DNA from: a virus
DNA: 22,956 bases
Direction: 5' to 3' (one strand)
Virus record (IMG/VR): IMGVR_UViG_3300029309_000257
Location: 5,675-28,630 of that record
The position numbers and the translations under genes were made by a program. This document shows positions 15,224-22,156 of this stretch, in pieces (position 1 is the first letter of the stretch; each line of letters opens with the position of its first letter). Below the pieces are notes generated by a model. It searched no databases and was not told the DNA's origin. It was given only the letters and a program-made list of their open reading frames with translations.

Positions 15224-15247
15224 AAAAAAACCCACCATTGTGGTGGG
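15224..15247 (-). terminator. Rho-independent terminator for the leftward operon
   Basis: Read on the minus strand, a perfect 7-bp stem (CCCACCA/TGGTGGG, 15231-15247) with a 3-base loop is followed by seven T residues (complement of 15224-15230). It lies about 45 bases past the end of the last minus-strand gene. Confidence 0.85.
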
Positions 15248-15257
15248 TGGCAGGATT

Positions 15258-15293
15258 GACCCCAAATATATGTGTTTATATTTGGGGTCTTTT
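15258..15293 (+). terminator. Rho-independent terminator for the late operon
   Basis: A perfect 13-bp stem (GACCCCAAATATA, 15258-15270, with 15277-15289) around TGTGTT is followed by TTTT. It ends the rightward structural transcript. It lies beyond the leftward terminator, so the two transcripts overlap at their 3' ends. Confidence 0.9.
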
Positions 15294-15600
15294 AATATTT
15301 ACAAATTTTTTTTATTGTTTTCAAATTTTCCGAATATTCACCCAATCCCAATTTTTCCATAGCCCTGGCAATTTCAATTTTTCCATGTATTCGTGGTTCA
15401 TTTCTACGCTGCCAGCAGGACGCTGTATTATAATTGCTGTCAGATATTTCACAAAAACGTTTTAGCGTTAGATTGTTTTCCAGTAGCATATTTTTAAACC
15501 ACAAATTAAAATTTGTTTTTATTTCGTTGGGCTGTCTGGTTTTTTTTTCTGGGATTGGTGGAGATTTGGGCAATATTGATTTGTTGAATCGTCTTCGCAT
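15292..15600 (-). CDS. Helix-turn-helix protein, last gene of the leftward operon
   Basis: 102 residues. The segment NFNLWFKNMLLENNLTLKRF, then CEISDSNYNTASCW and QRRNEPRIHGKIEIARAM (about 29-85), matches the XRE/Cro-type pattern: a first helix, LTLKRFCEIS, a turn, then a recognition helix. The N-terminal 28 residues are basic and Pro-rich. The start at 15600 has AAGGA 11 bases upstream and overlaps the preceding gene by 95 bases. The next Met (residue 38) would cut off the first helix, so the longer form is preferred. Its C-terminus is a lysine-rich helix. Probably a DNA-binding regulator of the nearby promoter pair; target not shown. Confidence 0.55.
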   Translation of the reverse strand: MRRRFNKSILPKSPPIPEKKTRQPNEIKTNFNLWFKNMLLENNLTLKRFCEISDSNYNTASCWQRRNEPRIHGKIEIARAMEKLGLGEYSENLKTIKKICKY

Positions 15601-15853
15601 GTTCTATTTGGTCCTTTTTAATATATTTTATTGCATCCAATAATATGGATTCGAATCCATCCCGCCTATATTCGGAGATGAATTCCACTATCAAAACAAA
15701 TTTCATTATTTGGGGATGGGCCCTACCATTGGCATAGCTATCAATACATTGGGGAGATACGCCCAAGTGATGGGCCATAGATGCCCATTGGAATCGGTAT
15801 AATCTCTTATGCTTACAAAGCCACGAGCTAAAGTTTGGGGCCCTACAATTCAT
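15506..15853 (-). CDS. Helix-turn-helix protein
   Basis: 115 residues from ATG 15853, which overlaps the exonuclease stop as ATGA; the frame extends further upstream but that is inside the exonuclease gene. FSSWLCKHKRLYRFQWASMA then HHLGVSPQCIDSYANGRAHP is a clean XRE-type HTH (about 10-45): helix, LGVS turn and recognition helix SPQCIDSYANGR. The rest is a long helix (FISEYRRDGFESILLDAIKYIKK) and a polar C-terminus. It resembles the other three HTH domains in this region in having an aromatic-Leu-x-Trp-Leu entry segment. Likely transcription regulator; operator not proven. Confidence 0.65.
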   Translation of the reverse strand: MNCRAPNFSSWLCKHKRLYRFQWASMAHHLGVSPQCIDSYANGRAHPQIMKFVLIVEFISEYRRDGFESILLDAIKYIKKDQIEHAKTIQQINIAQISTNPRKKNQTAQRNKNKF

Positions 15854-16422
15854 CGTTTTAGACCCAAGAATCGAGATAGAAAATACTTTGTTTTCCAAGC
15901 CCAACGACGTGGGGCATAACAAAACAAATCATGGAGGCGCTGGACATCCCGCGCGTCGTCCAAAGCATTGTGTTTTGCTCTGATTTCCCATCCCAAGAAT
16001 CCGCGAATGGAATCCAAAGAAATCGAATCCAATCCCATGGGAACCAAAAACATGTGGGCCAATGTCATGGAGTCCAAACATCGTCTATCTATTCCAATGG
16101 GGATTTTATGTTCTTCGAATAACATCTCTATGAATTCCATATCAAAATTTACATTATGGCCAACAATGATACATCCTTCTAAAATGTTAGCCAAATCAAC
16201 AGCTAGTTTTTTTTGATTTATAGCTGTTTTCCATTGTTTTGGGTTGTATCCATTGATTTTTAATGCTGTTTCATGGGCTCTTTCTATATGTTCAGGTTGT
16301 ACATAAACATGATATATGCTTGACCCTTTTAAAACACAAGCTTCTATTATTTCATGATGTCCTGCTAACAATCCTGTAGTTTCCAAATCGATGAATGCTT
16401 TGGGTCTTTTATTGAGCTTCAT
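15850..16422 (-). CDS. DEDDh-type 3'-5' exonuclease (DnaQ fold)
   Basis: 190 residues from ATG 16422, preferred because GGGAG lies eight bases upstream; the open frame upstream overlaps the small membrane ORF. The three exonuclease motifs are present. ExoI is FIDLETTG (near residue 10), with catalytic D and E. ExoII is IVGHNVNFDMEFI, giving the third D. ExoIII is HNALDDARD, giving the H and final D. This is the DEDDh family of DnaQ/RNase T-like exonucleases, which remove 3' nucleotides from DNA or RNA. As a stand-alone phage protein it may proofread, process recombination ends or degrade nucleic acid. It is followed by two HTH genes in the same operon, with a four-base overlap. Family call is firm; substrate is unknown. 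Confidence 0.85.
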   Translation of the reverse strand: MKLNKRPKAFIDLETTGLLAGHHEIIEACVLKGSSIYHVYVQPEHIERAHETALKINGYNPKQWKTAINQKKLAVDLANILEGCIIVGHNVNFDMEFIEMLFEEHKIPIGIDRRCLDSMTLAHMFLVPMGLDSISLDSIRGFLGWEIRAKHNALDDARDVQRLHDLFCYAPRRWAWKTKYFLSRFLGLKR

Positions 16423-16552
16423 CTGTTTTCTCCCAATCGATATCCTTAGTCGAGTAATAATATACACTATAGGAGATAATACCCAGAAATGTAGCACCCA
16501 ATTTGATGAATGGGCTCAAAATGTCAAATACTGCTATGATGTTGTGTTCCAT
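16409..16552 (-). CDS. Small membrane protein ORF in the leftward leader
   Basis: 47 residues from ATG 16552 (or 51 from ATG 16564). The start is preceded by GGA seven bases upstream, a weak site. The middle of the product is hydrophobic (SPFIKLGATFLGIISYSVYY), a probable single membrane span, with a short acidic C-terminus. It begins soon after the minus-strand promoter and its stop overlaps the exonuclease start region by 14 bases, filling a leader of about 180 bases that would otherwise be empty. No family is recognised. A phage membrane effector (exclusion or toxin-like) is possible but speculative. Confidence 0.45.
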   Translation of the reverse strand: MEHNIIAVFDILSPFIKLGATFLGIISYSVYYYSTKDIDWEKTDEAQ

Positions 16553-16580
16553 TGGTGGTTCCATGGTTTAAAGGTTGGAT

Positions 16581-16601
16581 GACTTGACAAAATAACAAGT
16601 C
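16581..16601. promoter_or_regulatory. Inverted repeat over the rightward -35 (operator candidate)
   Basis: GACTTG (16581-16586) and CAAGTC (16596-16601) form perfect 6-bp arms around nine bases. The repeat covers the rightward -35 and would also give a hairpin at the start of the leftward RNA. It is a plausible site for one of the HTH proteins. Confidence 0.45.
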
Positions 16602-16612
16602 CCATTTATTAT
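16584..16612 (+). promoter_or_regulatory. Rightward sigma-70 promoter of the replication operon
   Basis: TTGACA (16584-16589), a 17-base spacer and TATTAT (16607-16612). The -35 is perfect and the -10 has one mismatch. It should start RNA near 16619 and drive the HTH gene at 16661, whose GAGG site is 5-6 bases before its ATG. Its -10 overlaps that of the opposing promoter. Confidence 0.8.
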
Positions 16613-16636
16613 ATGGGTTGACGCGTCTAGTGTCAA
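16608..16636 (-). promoter_or_regulatory. Leftward sigma-70 promoter of the exonuclease operon
   Basis: On the minus strand TTGACA (complement of 16631-16636), a 17-base spacer and a perfect TATAAT (complement of 16608-16613). This is a full consensus promoter. It faces the opposite way to the rightward promoter and uses the same TATTATA bases as its -10. Confidence 0.8.
16618..16636. promoter_or_regulatory. Inverted repeat over the leftward -35 (operator candidate)
   Basis: TTGAC (16618-16622) and GTCAA (16632-16636) are separated by nine bases. The repeat covers the leftward -35 and lies at about +1 of the rightward promoter. Spacing matches the repeat at 16581-16601, so a dimeric regulator could bind both. 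Confidence 0.45.
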
Positions 16637-16660: not shown

Positions 16661-16921
16661 ATGAAAAAACCCTTTCATTTATGGCTTAGAGATAAAATAG
16701 CCCATCAGGGATTGACCCAAAGAGAGTTTTCCAAATTGGTGGATATCGATGAATCCAATGTATCCAACTATATTTTGGGAAAACGTATTCCCAACACAAG
16801 AACATTGATTCGTATTATTTTGGTACTTCATGACGATGGACCCAAGAATCAATTGGTGGAACTTCTCTGGGAGGCATTAACAAGCATTGAAAACATAGAG
16901 GTTTACAATGTTGTTGAGTGA
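16661..16921 (+). CDS. XRE-family helix-turn-helix regulator
   Basis: 86 residues. FHLWLRDKIAHQGLTQREFS, then KLVDIDESNVSNYILGKRIP (about 5-44), is a textbook XRE/Cro HTH: LTQREFSKLVDI as helices 1-2 and ESNVSNYILGKR as the recognition helix. The C-terminal 40 residues form one or two helices, probably for dimers. It is the first gene after the shared promoter pair, so it is the likeliest Cro- or repressor-type controller of that switch. It overlaps the next gene by 14 bases. There is no sign of a self-cleavage domain, so it is not a full LexA/CI-type protein. Confidence 0.8.
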   Translation: MKKPFHLWLRDKIAHQGLTQREFSKLVDIDESNVSNYILGKRIPNTRTLIRIILVLHDDGPKNQLVELLWEALTSIENIEVYNVVE

Positions 16922-17513
16922 ATTTCTAAAACTCCATGGAGATATTAAGCTAAAAAAAGCATGCCATATAAAATGTTCATTATGGAATGATATGGTCGCA
17001 AATTTGCGTCCCCCAACGAGAACCACAGCTCTAAATATATGTAATTATTTGGGGGGAGATTCGAAGGAAAAAATAGCAAAATATCAAAATATGCTGTTTG
17101 ATTCTATTTTGGAAATCCAAAGACCGGTCCAAACATTAAAAATGGTTTTACACATTGAACCTGTTGCAGCTCCACGCCCAAGGTTCACCAAATTTGGGAG
17201 ACCATATAACCCCAAGAGTTATACGGATTGGAAAAAGCGTTTTTCTGATTTGGTGGGAGATATTGGAACGATAACGGATGGATGTACGATTTCAGCTCGG
17301 TATTATTTCCAATCAACCAGTACGAGTTCTTTGGGATATCATACCAAAAAGAAGGACATAGACAACATAGACAAAGCTATTTTGGATGCCTTACAAATGA
17401 ACGGTTTATTGGAGGATGACAAAACAGTTTATAGGATGGATTCTACAAAATATTATGGATTCACCAATAAAATAGAATTGGAAATTAAACATAATGGTTT
17501 TTGGACCAATTAA
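16908..17513 (+). CDS. rusA: HTH domain fused to RusA-type Holliday junction resolvase
   Basis: 201 residues. Residues 1-65 look like a degenerate HTH (FLKLHGDIKLKKACHIKCSL, then NDMVANLRPPTRTTALNICN). Residues 78-200 are RusA: VAAPRPRFTKFGRPYNPKSY near the start, then KKKDIDNIDKAILDALQ and a DD pair (EDDKTVY) further on. The conserved Asp residues and the K-x-D-x-DN-x-x-K motif are the RusA catalytic region, which cuts four-way junctions and helps resolve replication or recombination intermediates. RusA proteins are usually about 120 residues, so the N-terminal addition is notable. AGAGG lies six bases before the ATG. The HTH may target the enzyme to specific DNA. The RusA call is firm; the HTH call is moderate. 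Confidence 0.8.
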   Translation: MLLSEFLKLHGDIKLKKACHIKCSLWNDMVANLRPPTRTTALNICNYLGGDSKEKIAKYQNMLFDSILEIQRPVQTLKMVLHIEPVAAPRPRFTKFGRPYNPKSYTDWKKRFSDLVGDIGTITDGCTISARYYFQSTSTSSLGYHTKKKDIDNIDKAILDALQMNGLLEDDKTVYRMDSTKYYGFTNKIELEIKHNGFWTN

Positions 17514-17573: not shown

Positions 17574-18482
17574 ATGTATAGCATAACAGCTTTACGCCAA
17601 ATTAAAAACACCAAAAACCCTATATTCCTAGAATATGGATTTGAACAACTCGCAAAATTTCTAACCCTTCCACGAGCTGGTTTTAAAACATCCAAACATA
17701 GCACTATCCCTGCTTGGAGTCCTGCAAAGTTCAACGGGATGGGCCTTAAAAGTGAACATGTTTTATCAGTCTCTTGTATGGTTTATGATATAGATGATGG
17801 ATTGGAATTTGATACCCATGAACGCTTCCACCCGTTCCAATACATAGCCTATACCAGCCCATCCCATAGCTTTGAACACCACAAATGGAGATTGGTCCTT
17901 CCACTTGATGAACCCATCCCCATGAAATATTGGGGATTGGTTTGGGAGGACATGAAAAACTATTTTGAGATAAAAACAAACACCCTATTGAATGGGGGAA
18001 AAATTGATACAACTTGCAAAGACCCAAGGCGTTTTTATTTTCTGGGAAAAGAGGGGAGACATTTTGAATCCCATGTCAATGAAAAGGGATATAATTTTTG
18101 GGTCAATTTACCTGAAATTATAGAACGGAAAAAACAACGAGACGAAGCCCAAAGAAGAGCTTTAGAAATACAAAAACAAAAACTTCGGGATGCAATGAAA
18201 AGACCCCAACGAAACAGGGATACATATAATGAATTGAGAATGCAATTAAACACAAATCCACAATATAGAAAACTATTATTGGAACGTATTGGGGGGAAAA
18301 TAACAGGTGGAGCGAATCCACGCGCTATTGGGTGGGAATGTCCATCCTGTAAAAGGTCCGATTGCACGTTTTTTTATGTCAATCCTTTGGGAAATAAATT
18401 GGGGGCATTTTGCAACCATAGAAATAGCTGTGGATTTACTAGTGGGTTATTCGAGCTGGGACGACTAAAGGGGGTGTTCTAA
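17574..18482 (+). CDS. Primase-polymerase (AEP-type) with C-terminal zinc ribbon
   Basis: 302 residues. MVYDIDDG has the D-x-D metal-binding pair (D72, D74). TSPSHSFEHHKWRLVLPLDE supplies the S-x-H element (H98) and a following Arg (R106). GKIDTTCKDPRRFYFLG holds the third acidic residue. This is the motif order of archaeo-eukaryotic primase (AEP) domains. Residues 185-230 are a charged helical linker. The C-terminus has four to six metal ligands (ECPSCKRSDC...CNHRNSCG), a zinc ribbon. It would prime DNA synthesis and may also extend. Zinc ribbons often precede primase domains; here it follows. AGGA lies nine bases before the start. The next gene, a helicase, overlaps by one base. Confidence 0.75.
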   Translation: MYSITALRQIKNTKNPIFLEYGFEQLAKFLTLPRAGFKTSKHSTIPAWSPAKFNGMGLKSEHVLSVSCMVYDIDDGLEFDTHERFHPFQYIAYTSPSHSFEHHKWRLVLPLDEPIPMKYWGLVWEDMKNYFEIKTNTLLNGGKIDTTCKDPRRFYFLGKEGRHFESHVNEKGYNFWVNLPEIIERKKQRDEAQRRALEIQKQKLRDAMKRPQRNRDTYNELRMQLNTNPQYRKLLLERIGGKITGGANPRAIGWECPSCKRSDCTFFYVNPLGNKLGAFCNHRNSCGFTSGLFELGRLKGVF

Positions 18483-19813
18483 TGGGTGTAGAGGATACAT
18501 TTGATGCTATGGTGATGGAGCTCAGCAAAGACTATGTAAGTCCCCAAGCATTAGATTTGAAAATGAAAAAGATAAAAGTCCAGGACAAGGAGGGAAACCA
18601 ACGAATTGAGGATGGAAACCCTTATAGTACGCGGTCCAACATTTCCAAGATATTGGAGAACCATCCTAAGTTTCAATCTCTGTTTTGGGATGACTTTTCA
18701 ATGAAGATATATTGGAATGATAAAGCCTTTGCGGACCACGATTTAACGCGGATTGTTATTTGGATTGAGAATACATATCATTTCATTACATCCGAGGATG
18801 TATTGAAAAAGGTTGTTTTATTGGTGGCTCGGAATAGAGCTAAAAATCTATTGGCTGAATATTTGGATTCTCATATCACCGAAGAAACCGAGGATACCCT
18901 GGGATGGGATGGAACCCAACGATTAAAGGACATTTTCACAAAATATTTTGGAGTAGAATCCATCTATTTTAATGATGATGGAGTCCAAAAAGATTTGGTG
19001 GAAATATATGGGGTGAAATATTTTGTGGGGGCCATAAAGCGCGCTTTGTTCGCTACATTGGAAAGTCCAATAAAGCAGGACGTGGTTCTTATCCTCATGG
19101 GGGCCCAAGGGATTCGTAAATCGAGCGCGTTGGAAGCATTGGCATTAAAAAATTGTTGGTTTTCAGATGAAGAACTGGACTTGACTTCCAAGGATGCCAA
19201 ATATGCCATCCAAGGAAAACTGCTATATGAACTAGCAGAATGGAGTGGAAGAGGGAAAAATATCCAACGGGAGAAAGCTTTCTTTTCCAGCAAAACCGAC
19301 CGATACAGACCTGTTCATGGGACCTTTCAAATTGAAGTTCCCAGGCGTTGCAATTTTGCAGTAACAGCCAATAGAAAGTCTTTGCTGAATGATTCAACAG
19401 GTTCCCGTCGATATTGGGCCTTGGTTTGTGGACAGGTGATTCATGAGGGTGGATGGGATGGGAAAAAACTCCCAGTTGCAGAGCTGGAAAAAATTGCTGT
19501 CCAAATTTGGTTGGAAGCGCGATATTTGGCATCCCAAGATGTTCAATATTGGCTAACGGATAAGGAAGACGAACAACGAGCAGATACCAATACTGAATTT
19601 GCCTCTTCACATCCATGGATATACAAGGTTCGTAAAATTGTTCTTTCTCGTGATGAAGTGACAATCGATTTCATTATGGATGCCCTGGCTCTTCGGATGT
19701 CGGAACGAAACCCCAAATCAAAAACTATTATTGAAATGTGTTTAAAGGAGATTGGTTATAGTAAAAAAAGGAGGGGTTCCCGAAACAATAGATATATAGC
19801 GTGGGTTAAATGA
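18482..19813 (+). CDS. VapE-type SF3-like replicative helicase
   Basis: 443 residues. Residues 207-215 form the Walker A motif GAQGIRKSS. LLYELAEWSG (about 247-256) is Walker B, TAN at 295-297 is sensor 1, and GSRRYW at 307-312 carries the arginine finger. This is the virulence-associated protein E (VapE/VirE) fold, related to D5-like primase-helicases. The N-terminal 190 residues are a helical domain that could bind DNA; the C-terminal 60 residues are basic. Together with the primase gene it should form the replisome core, and VapE-type Rep proteins are known to act on iteron origins in SaPIs. The iteron array 0.8 kb downstream is a candidate target. Confidence 0.85.
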   Translation: MGVEDTFDAMVMELSKDYVSPQALDLKMKKIKVQDKEGNQRIEDGNPYSTRSNISKILENHPKFQSLFWDDFSMKIYWNDKAFADHDLTRIVIWIENTYHFITSEDVLKKVVLLVARNRAKNLLAEYLDSHITEETEDTLGWDGTQRLKDIFTKYFGVESIYFNDDGVQKDLVEIYGVKYFVGAIKRALFATLESPIKQDVVLILMGAQGIRKSSALEALALKNCWFSDEELDLTSKDAKYAIQGKLLYELAEWSGRGKNIQREKAFFSSKTDRYRPVHGTFQIEVPRRCNFAVTANRKSLLNDSTGSRRYWALVCGQVIHEGGWDGKKLPVAELEKIAVQIWLEARYLASQDVQYWLTDKEDEQRADTNTEFASSHPWIYKVRKIVLSRDEVTIDFIMDALALRMSERNPKSKTIIEMCLKEIGYSKKRRGSRNNRYIAWVK

Positions 19814-20916: not shown

Positions 20917-21537
20917 TCAAAACAATTTTAGCTGTCTTTGATGGTTTTTGAGTCGTTTGGATGCCGCCTCAAAATATTCTTTGTCAATCTCAAACCCATC
21001 GAGATGGAATCCCATATCATGACAAGCCAGAGCAATGGACCCACTGCCCAAATGAGTATCAAGGATTCTATCTCCAGTTTTGGCATATCTATTAAGCAAA
21101 ATTGAATATAGGGAGATGGGTTTTTGACATGGGTGAATAATCGGTTCTTTCCGGTTTATGTTTTGCCAAATCAAATCTATGTATTCAACTTTTTGATGCT
21201 TTGATGTGTATGCAATCTCACATTTTGACATATTGGGGGCCCGAACATGTTTATACCAAACAATCATCCCACCCACTAGATTGGGATAATAATTTGCTCC
21301 CCAAATGATTTGGTGTTTTGATACTCTCCCCAGCTCCGTGAAATATTCAATTGATGGAATGGAATTATTCCATTTTTGCGTTTTCAATCTCTTTTTCCGT
21401 CGTTCCTCTTTTGGTTCGGTACTACTATGGGCCCAATCTTCTATTCCATAAGGAGGGTCACAGATAGCCAAATCCCAATGGTTATCTGGTGCGTTGGACA
21501 TGGCTTCCATGCAGTCCATATTGTATAAGTTAATCAT
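20917..21537 (-). CDS. Beta-class DNA adenine methyltransferase B
   Basis: 206 residues. Near the N-terminus AICDPPYG (D27-P-P-Y30) is the catalytic motif IV of amino-methyltransferases; IIHPCQKPISLY (about 133-144) follows, and ILDTHLGSGSIAL (about 158-170) is motif I, which binds S-adenosylmethionine. The order IV, recognition region, I places it in the beta class. DPPY favours N6-adenine. The central region (about 31-130) differs from its upstream paralogue while both ends are almost identical, which suggests different targets. It starts seven bases after the paralogue's stop, with AGGA upstream. No partner restriction enzyme is seen, so it probably protects phage DNA or alters its regulation. 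Confidence 0.85.
   Translation of the reverse strand: MINLYNMDCMEAMSNAPDNHWDLAICDPPYGIEDWAHSSTEPKEERRKKRLKTQKWNNSIPSIEYFTELGRVSKHQIIWGANYYPNLVGGMIVWYKHVRAPNMSKCEIAYTSKHQKVEYIDLIWQNINRKEPIIHPCQKPISLYSILLNRYAKTGDRILDTHLGSGSIALACHDMGFHLDGFEIDKEYFEAASKRLKNHQRQLKLF
20948..21084 (-). repeat. 137-bp exact repeat in methyltransferase B (copy at 21576-21712)
   Basis: The 3' ends of the two methyltransferase genes are identical over 137 bp. The two copies are 628 bp apart, direct in orientation. Such identity, next to divergent middles, points to recent duplication or gene conversion, and could recombine to give one hybrid gene. Confidence 0.9.
21441..21510 (-). repeat. 70-bp exact repeat at the methyltransferase 5' ends (copy at 22060-22129)
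   Basis: The 5' parts of the genes, encoding the DPPY region, are identical over 70 bp, 619 bp apart; after one mismatch identity continues through the start codon and ribosome site. The different offset from the 3' repeat shows that the middles differ in length by 9 bp. Confidence 0.9.
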
Positions 21538-21544
21538 GTGGTTC

Positions 21545-22156
21545 CTAGAATAGTTTTAATTGTCTTTGGTGGTTCTTGAGTCGTTTGGATGCCGCCTCAA
21601 AATATTCTTTGTCAATCTCAAACCCATCGAGATGGAATCCCATATCATGACAAGCCAGAGCAATGGACCCACTGCCCAAATGAGTATCAAGGATTCTATC
21701 TCCAGTTTTGGCGTATCTACTGAGAATCCATGTATACAAAGACACGGGTTTTTGGGTTGGGTGAATCCTGCCTCCAGAATCACTTCGTTTTGTAAACTGT
21801 TTGAGATTGGTATCAAAGGAAGTGAATGCCAGTTCCCCATCGGCATAGTTCCCTCCCATTTTCTTTTCCCAATATATCCATCCCCTAGAAGGTGGTAGCA
21901 TATCAGAAAAATAATTGGCTCCCCAAATGATTTGGTTCTTAGATACTCTAAAGAGCTCCAAGAAATATTCTTTGTTGGGTTTGGTGCTGTCCCATTGTTT
22001 TGGAGTGTACAAGTCAGACTTTTTGCCTCCACGGGTTATTCCTGCTCCAATGCCCATCCCTATTCCATAAGGAGGGTCACAGATAGCCAAATCCCAATGG
22101 TTATCTGGTGCGTTGGACATGGCTTCCATACAGTCCATATTGTATAATTTAATCAT
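21545..22156 (-). CDS. Beta-class DNA adenine methyltransferase A
   Basis: 203 residues from ATG 22156, where the sequence aligns with the start of its paralogue (MI.LYNMDCMEAMSNAPDN); the open frame upstream overlaps the neighbouring gene and is rejected. It shares DPPYG near residue 27, IHPTQKPVSLY and LDTHLGSGSIAL with the paralogue, so the same beta-class chemistry applies. Its middle is longer in a Gly/Lys-rich loop (GIGMGIGAGITRGGKK) and has a different recognition region ending in GGRIHP. Target sequence unknown. With its sister gene it forms a tandem pair that arose by duplication. Confidence 0.85.
   Translation of the reverse strand: MIKLYNMDCMEAMSNAPDNHWDLAICDPPYGIGMGIGAGITRGGKKSDLYTPKQWDSTKPNKEYFLELFRVSKNQIIWGANYFSDMLPPSRGWIYWEKKMGGNYADGELAFTSFDTNLKQFTKRSDSGGRIHPTQKPVSLYTWILSRYAKTGDRILDTHLGSGSIALACHDMGFHLDGFEIDKEYFEAASKRLKNHQRQLKLF

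Follow-up and report, generated by a model that had tools for sequence, protein, structure and literature searches.

Two divergent consensus promoters with a shared -10 element between two operons of a phage

The virus record IMGVR_UViG_3300029309_000257 comprises 28,630 bases, is classed as linear and may be incomplete; the stretch of 22,956 nucleotides analysed here (the window) lies within it. Its recognisable genes include head, tail, endolysin-like and terminase genes. The features surrounding the promoter region are listed in Table 1. The right operon opens with the gene for the HTH_3 protein, a candidate autoregulator, and the first ORF of the left operon is likely to encode a small membrane protein, as judged by eye. 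HTH genes had been proposed to lie on both sides of the promoters. On the right this was borne out by the Pfam match to HTH_3, whereas on the left there is only a weak resemblance, and the HTH-like calls there were made from weak matches and from reading of the sequence.

Table 1. Positions of promoter elements, inverted repeats and neighbouring genes in the window.
Feature	Position	Strand	Basis
TTGACA, -35 of rightward promoter	16584..16589	+	sequence
TATTAT, -10 of rightward promoter, spacer 17 bp	16607..16612	+	sequence
TATAAT, -10 of leftward promoter	16608..16613	-	sequence
TTGACA, -35 of leftward promoter, spacer 17 bp	16631..16636	-	sequence
Inverted repeat GACTTG-9-CAAGTC over rightward -35	16581..16601		sequence
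Inverted repeat CCCAT-7-ATGGG over shared -10	16601..16617		sequence
Inverted repeat TTGAC-9-GTCAA over leftward -35	16618..16636		sequence
86-aa HTH_3 (XRE/Cro-like) protein, right operon gene 1	16661..16921	+	PF01381, E 8.6e-9
RusA-like Holliday junction resolvase	16908..17513	+	family match
Primase-like protein	17574..18482	+	family match
VapE-like helicase	18482..19813	+	family match
51-aa ORF, left operon first ORF, overlaps exonuclease start	16409..16564	-	no family match
DnaQ-like (RNase_T) exonuclease, start ATG 16422	15850..16422	-	family match
115-aa protein, HTH-like by eye	15506..15853	-	weak PDB match 2kpj (LexA-type), E 0.18
102-aa protein, HTH-like by eye	15292..15600	-	phrog_8898, E 3.5e-4; no PDB match
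Terminator-like hairpins at boundary of rightward structural genes and leftward operon	15230..15289		sequence

Relatives of the HTH protein and of the exonuclease were not found in viral contigs. The helicase had a single distant match there (24%), and the terminase had one relative (94%) on a 6.2-kb contig that stops short of the promoter region. A DNA search of phage records gave no match, and a homologous early region was found by none of these searches (HTH, exonuclease, helicase, terminase or DNA). The PHROGs scans detected neither an integrase nor any other lysogeny gene among the proteins they covered in this linear, possibly incomplete record.

Elsewhere in the window, two tandem DNA methyltransferase genes (20917-22153, minus strand) are nearly identical over a long stretch of DNA at the 3' end, as a recent duplication would leave them. 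The motif GTGTCAC is present at ten exact sites between 20596 and 20896 (12 in the window, with 1.4 expected). These sites form a mirror image about an AT-rich centre, with spacings of 41-10-14-41 and 41-14-10-41, and the array, located after the replication genes, looks like an iteron-type replication origin; its core pattern had no match in viral contigs. Since the promoter contains GTGTCAA, a protein shared by promoter and array was considered, but this was rejected because orientation and spacing of the half-sites differ; the core-to-core distance is 46 bp at the promoter and 41 bp in the array.

Both promoters had been proposed in the sequence-only reading, and their hexamers, 17-bp spacers and coordinates were all confirmed. 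The rightward promoter extends from 16584 to 16612 and the leftward promoter from 16636 to 16608. As had been claimed, the -10 element is shared: five bases (16608-16612) are common to both -10 hexamers within a TATTATA core (16607-16613), and the symmetry axis of the four promoter hexamers is located at 16610. The further claim that the whole 53 bp (16584-16636) are symmetric was overstated, since symmetry is confined to the promoter elements and only 3 of the 17 spacer positions outside them are symmetric. With 12/12 and 11/12 consensus matches, the two promoters look equal in strength. Placing the predicted +1 seven bases downstream of each -10 gives starts at about 16601 for the leftward and about 16619 for the rightward transcript, 18 bp apart.

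In a first-order model of the record, about 1.1e-6 perfect dual sites are expected in its 28,630 bases, and 19.8 Mb of simulated Markov sequence contained no overlapping divergent pair with at least 23 of 24 matches. The two promoters are the record's best two sigma70-type sites and the only ones in the whole record with at least 11/12 matches outside coding genes; a third 11/12 site (11220-11193) falls within a coding gene.

An inverted repeat with a nine-base centre had been described at each -35, and both are present. The central repeat over the shared -10 places GGG at or beside both predicted starts. The outer repeats each cover one -35 and begin at the +1 of the opposite transcript: repeat 16581-16601 ends on the leftward transcript's predicted +1, and repeat 16618-16636 opens at that of the rightward transcript (16619). 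When the spacers were shuffled 100,000 times with the promoter elements fixed, such a repeat was obtained at both ends in 0.04% of the shuffles (P ~4e-4), a value that is no more than suggestive because the geometry was spotted after looking. The two outer repeats are unlike in sequence and are not copies of each other. A search of the window that allowed as many as 3 mismatches gave no further copy of either.

The dual perfect pattern was found in 17 viral stretches, compared with 2 for a control of identical composition with swapped -35 hexamers; a second control with 12-bp spacers gave 9 viral stretches, mostly from one repeated family. Because the matches fall in repeated families, the independent viral counts, obtained by removing near-duplicates by eye, are about 10 versus 2 (swapped -35) and 3 (12-bp spacers). 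One family accounts for seven of the 17 viral matches (L005, L007, L008, L011, L013, L014 and L019); here one TTGACA lies complementary to ATGTCAA, the start of a small gene, and the coding sequence alone may account for this -35. The recurrent viral family among the matches to the 12-bp-spacer control (L144-L151) carries TTGACATATATATATAATTATAATAG... and is located inside or beside small ORFs. In 84,980 bacterial and archaeal genomes at least 119 stretches, mostly from Firmicutes, carry the dual pattern; the control counts refer to viral contigs.

By simple gene calling, 54 dual sites are flanked by divergent genes and 39 fall within an ORF, the window entering these counts twice (as itself and as L001). 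The neighbouring genes form families; judged by their sequences, some of these are TetR-like or XRE-like regulators. At about 20 Oscillospiraceae-type loci (L027, L028, L036, L061, L062, L066, L085 and others), a perfect dual promoter and a conserved stretch of the TGCGACA type adjoin a gene resembling YceD/DUF177; a second conserved gene often lies divergent to it. At another locus (L055:889-941) the 17-bp spacers are fully symmetric too, resulting in a perfect 53-bp palindrome except for the centre. A repeat covering each -35 and positioned at the opposite +1 was detected at 5 of the 128 other distinct dual sites, where 0.14 were expected. All five (L038, L093, L099, L114 and L127, from Firmicutes) adjoin short XRE-like genes, and they are not five independent cases because the genes belong to one protein family. 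A sixth XRE-adjacent dual site (L143) is without this repeat geometry.

We lean towards reading the element of this uncultured phage as a bidirectional early promoter on which RNA polymerase orientations exclude each other and which is autoregulated by the HTH protein, giving an early pulse by negative feedback rather than a stable two-state switch. The host sigma70 RNA polymerase would bind the shared -10 facing left or right, with one firing at a time. Leftward firing would express the small ORF, the exonuclease and the two HTH-like ORFs, and rightward firing the HTH protein, RusA, the primase-like protein and the VapE helicase. On phage entry, strong firing in both directions and competition between them would be expected from how close the two promoters come to consensus. 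As the right operon's first product, the XRE-like HTH protein would then bind the inverted repeats over each -35/+1 and shut down both directions, ending the pulse. The promoter step is strongly supported by the sequence, from which promoter activity is predicted. Exclusion at the phage site is inferred from the overlap of the -10 elements and from published cases, and competition would follow from both -35s already being consensus. Binding of the HTH protein and repression through the repeats are, by analogy, the most likely next step; they are favoured by the geometry in common with the five XRE-adjacent sites and by the HTH_3 gene directly downstream (16661-16921) as the first rightward gene. 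Against autoregulation stand the unlike repeats and the lack of further copies in the window: the promoters are not overlain by copies of a single operator.

Both outer repeats also fold as 5'-terminal RNA hairpins from the predicted +1 (-6.6 kcal/mol for 16581-16601 and -7.5 kcal/mol for 16618-16636), and over the first 22-24 nt few or none of 200 shuffles fold equally well; therefore, a role in RNA is a live rival. The element might be an unregulated strong bidirectional early promoter, the repeats serving only as 5' stem-loops that protect the early mRNAs from 5'-end-dependent decay. For other transcripts it is established that 5' stem-loops protect the mRNA. We nevertheless hold this to be somewhat unlikely here, since across the 45-nt leader the plus-strand hairpin does not reach significance (z -1.59), and at the five similar sites the repeats are near-identical, adjoin XRE genes and look like DNA operators. 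A chance resemblance with no function behind it is highly improbable, given an expectation of about 1e-6 per record, the intergenic location flanked by divergent operons and the enrichment of the pattern over controls elsewhere.

The sequence-only reading had called the element a candidate bistable switch between the exonuclease/HTH operon and the replication operon. What stands of this are two consensus promoters that have one -10 in common and face two phage operons, the presence of regulators close by, and a single polymerase orientation at any time; bistability of the phage promoter is not supported. In a toggle of the lysis/lysogeny type, one HTH protein would hold the left operon on and the other the right, and exclusion would give two stable states. 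This agrees with the HTH-like ORFs in both operons and with the unlike inverted repeats over the two -35s, since two regulators would require separate sites, and the Pc/Pr promoters of pLS20, an overlapping divergent pair with a regulator as switch, are a precedent (PMC4207663). However, polymerase exclusion alone gives competition, not memory, and according to the theory of Bendtsen et al., as relayed in PMC4207663, switching at overlapping promoters needs unequal strengths and a differentially acting regulator. The phage promoters look equal in strength, the HTH identity is weak on the left side and an integrase or other lysogeny gene was not found among the scanned proteins of the possibly incomplete record, which makes a toggle distinctly unlikely. 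More doubtful still is that two different HTH regulators, one for each of the unlike repeats, turn the 56-bp element (16581-16636) into a minimal two-state decision element. If true, these 56 bp would join polymerase exclusion with two operators doubling as 5' mRNA hairpins and would decide which early operon the phage runs.

The preferred reading, an autoregulated bidirectional promoter, was compared with known systems. The locus belongs to the standard 18-bp class of bacterial bidirectional promoters and is thus of a known type: the -10 elements of opposite strands overlap, their -7/-11 positions coincide and the predicted starts are about 18 bp apart, the commonest arrangement of bidirectional promoters in bacteria (PMC10268837, PMC12825309). 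Like the bidirectional promoters of Warman/Grainger, it has a TATWATA core; in those promoters the two orientations exclude each other (documented for the 18-bp class in PMC12825309), and at the phage locus exclusion is expected from the overlap. In the described sets the -35s are poorly conserved (PMC10268837), whereas both are perfect at the phage site; the two perfect -35s had been called striking, and within the known class the site is unusual solely in this respect. At five E. coli bidirectional promoters tested, basal activity was too low for the directions to compete; improving one -35 increased its own transcript in 4 of the 5 and greatly reduced opposite transcription at most of them (PMC12825309). 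Bidirectional promoters described so far combine weak -35s with activity too low for competition. Competition for polymerase should be at its strongest at a natural site like this one, where both -35s are at consensus, and the site is placed where the phage would choose between its early operons.

The five XRE loci resemble the phage locus in geometry, not by sequence homology: each has a perfect dual promoter, one inverted repeat per -35 starting at most 1 base from the opposite +1, and a short XRE-like gene adjacent. Their regulators are ORFs of 67-96 aa, in several cases beside a membrane-protein gene. Within each of these loci the two repeats are almost the same, as would be expected of operators, whereas the phage repeats differ. 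Doubly perfect sites across bacterial genomes, often from Firmicutes and in families adjoining regulators, constitute a ready test set for studying polymerase exclusion acting together with repressors. C proteins are XRE-like. The PCR/PM promoters of the EcoRV restriction-modification system resemble those of the phage: they are divergent, their binding sites for polymerase overlap, and the first gene of one operon codes for a small control protein (PMC5333194), a position occupied in the phage by the HTH_3 protein, the candidate autoregulator; the EcoRV genes and control logic differ, and the phage locus has no restriction cassette. The pLS20 Pc/Pr conjugation switch likewise belongs to a mobile element: its divergent promoters overlap, the regulator has sites both over and beside the core promoters, and the polymerase forms part of the switch (PMC4207663). 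Pc and Pr are of unequal strength, and RcoLS20 acts on them differentially and through DNA looping (PMC4207663), while the phage promoters look equal. A phage case of exactly this form was not found in the literature searched, which left most subscription journals outside its coverage. Overlapping divergent promoters are already known as switch parts from pLS20 and EcoRV; with two perfect -35s and its phage setting, this promoter is a notable case within a known kind.
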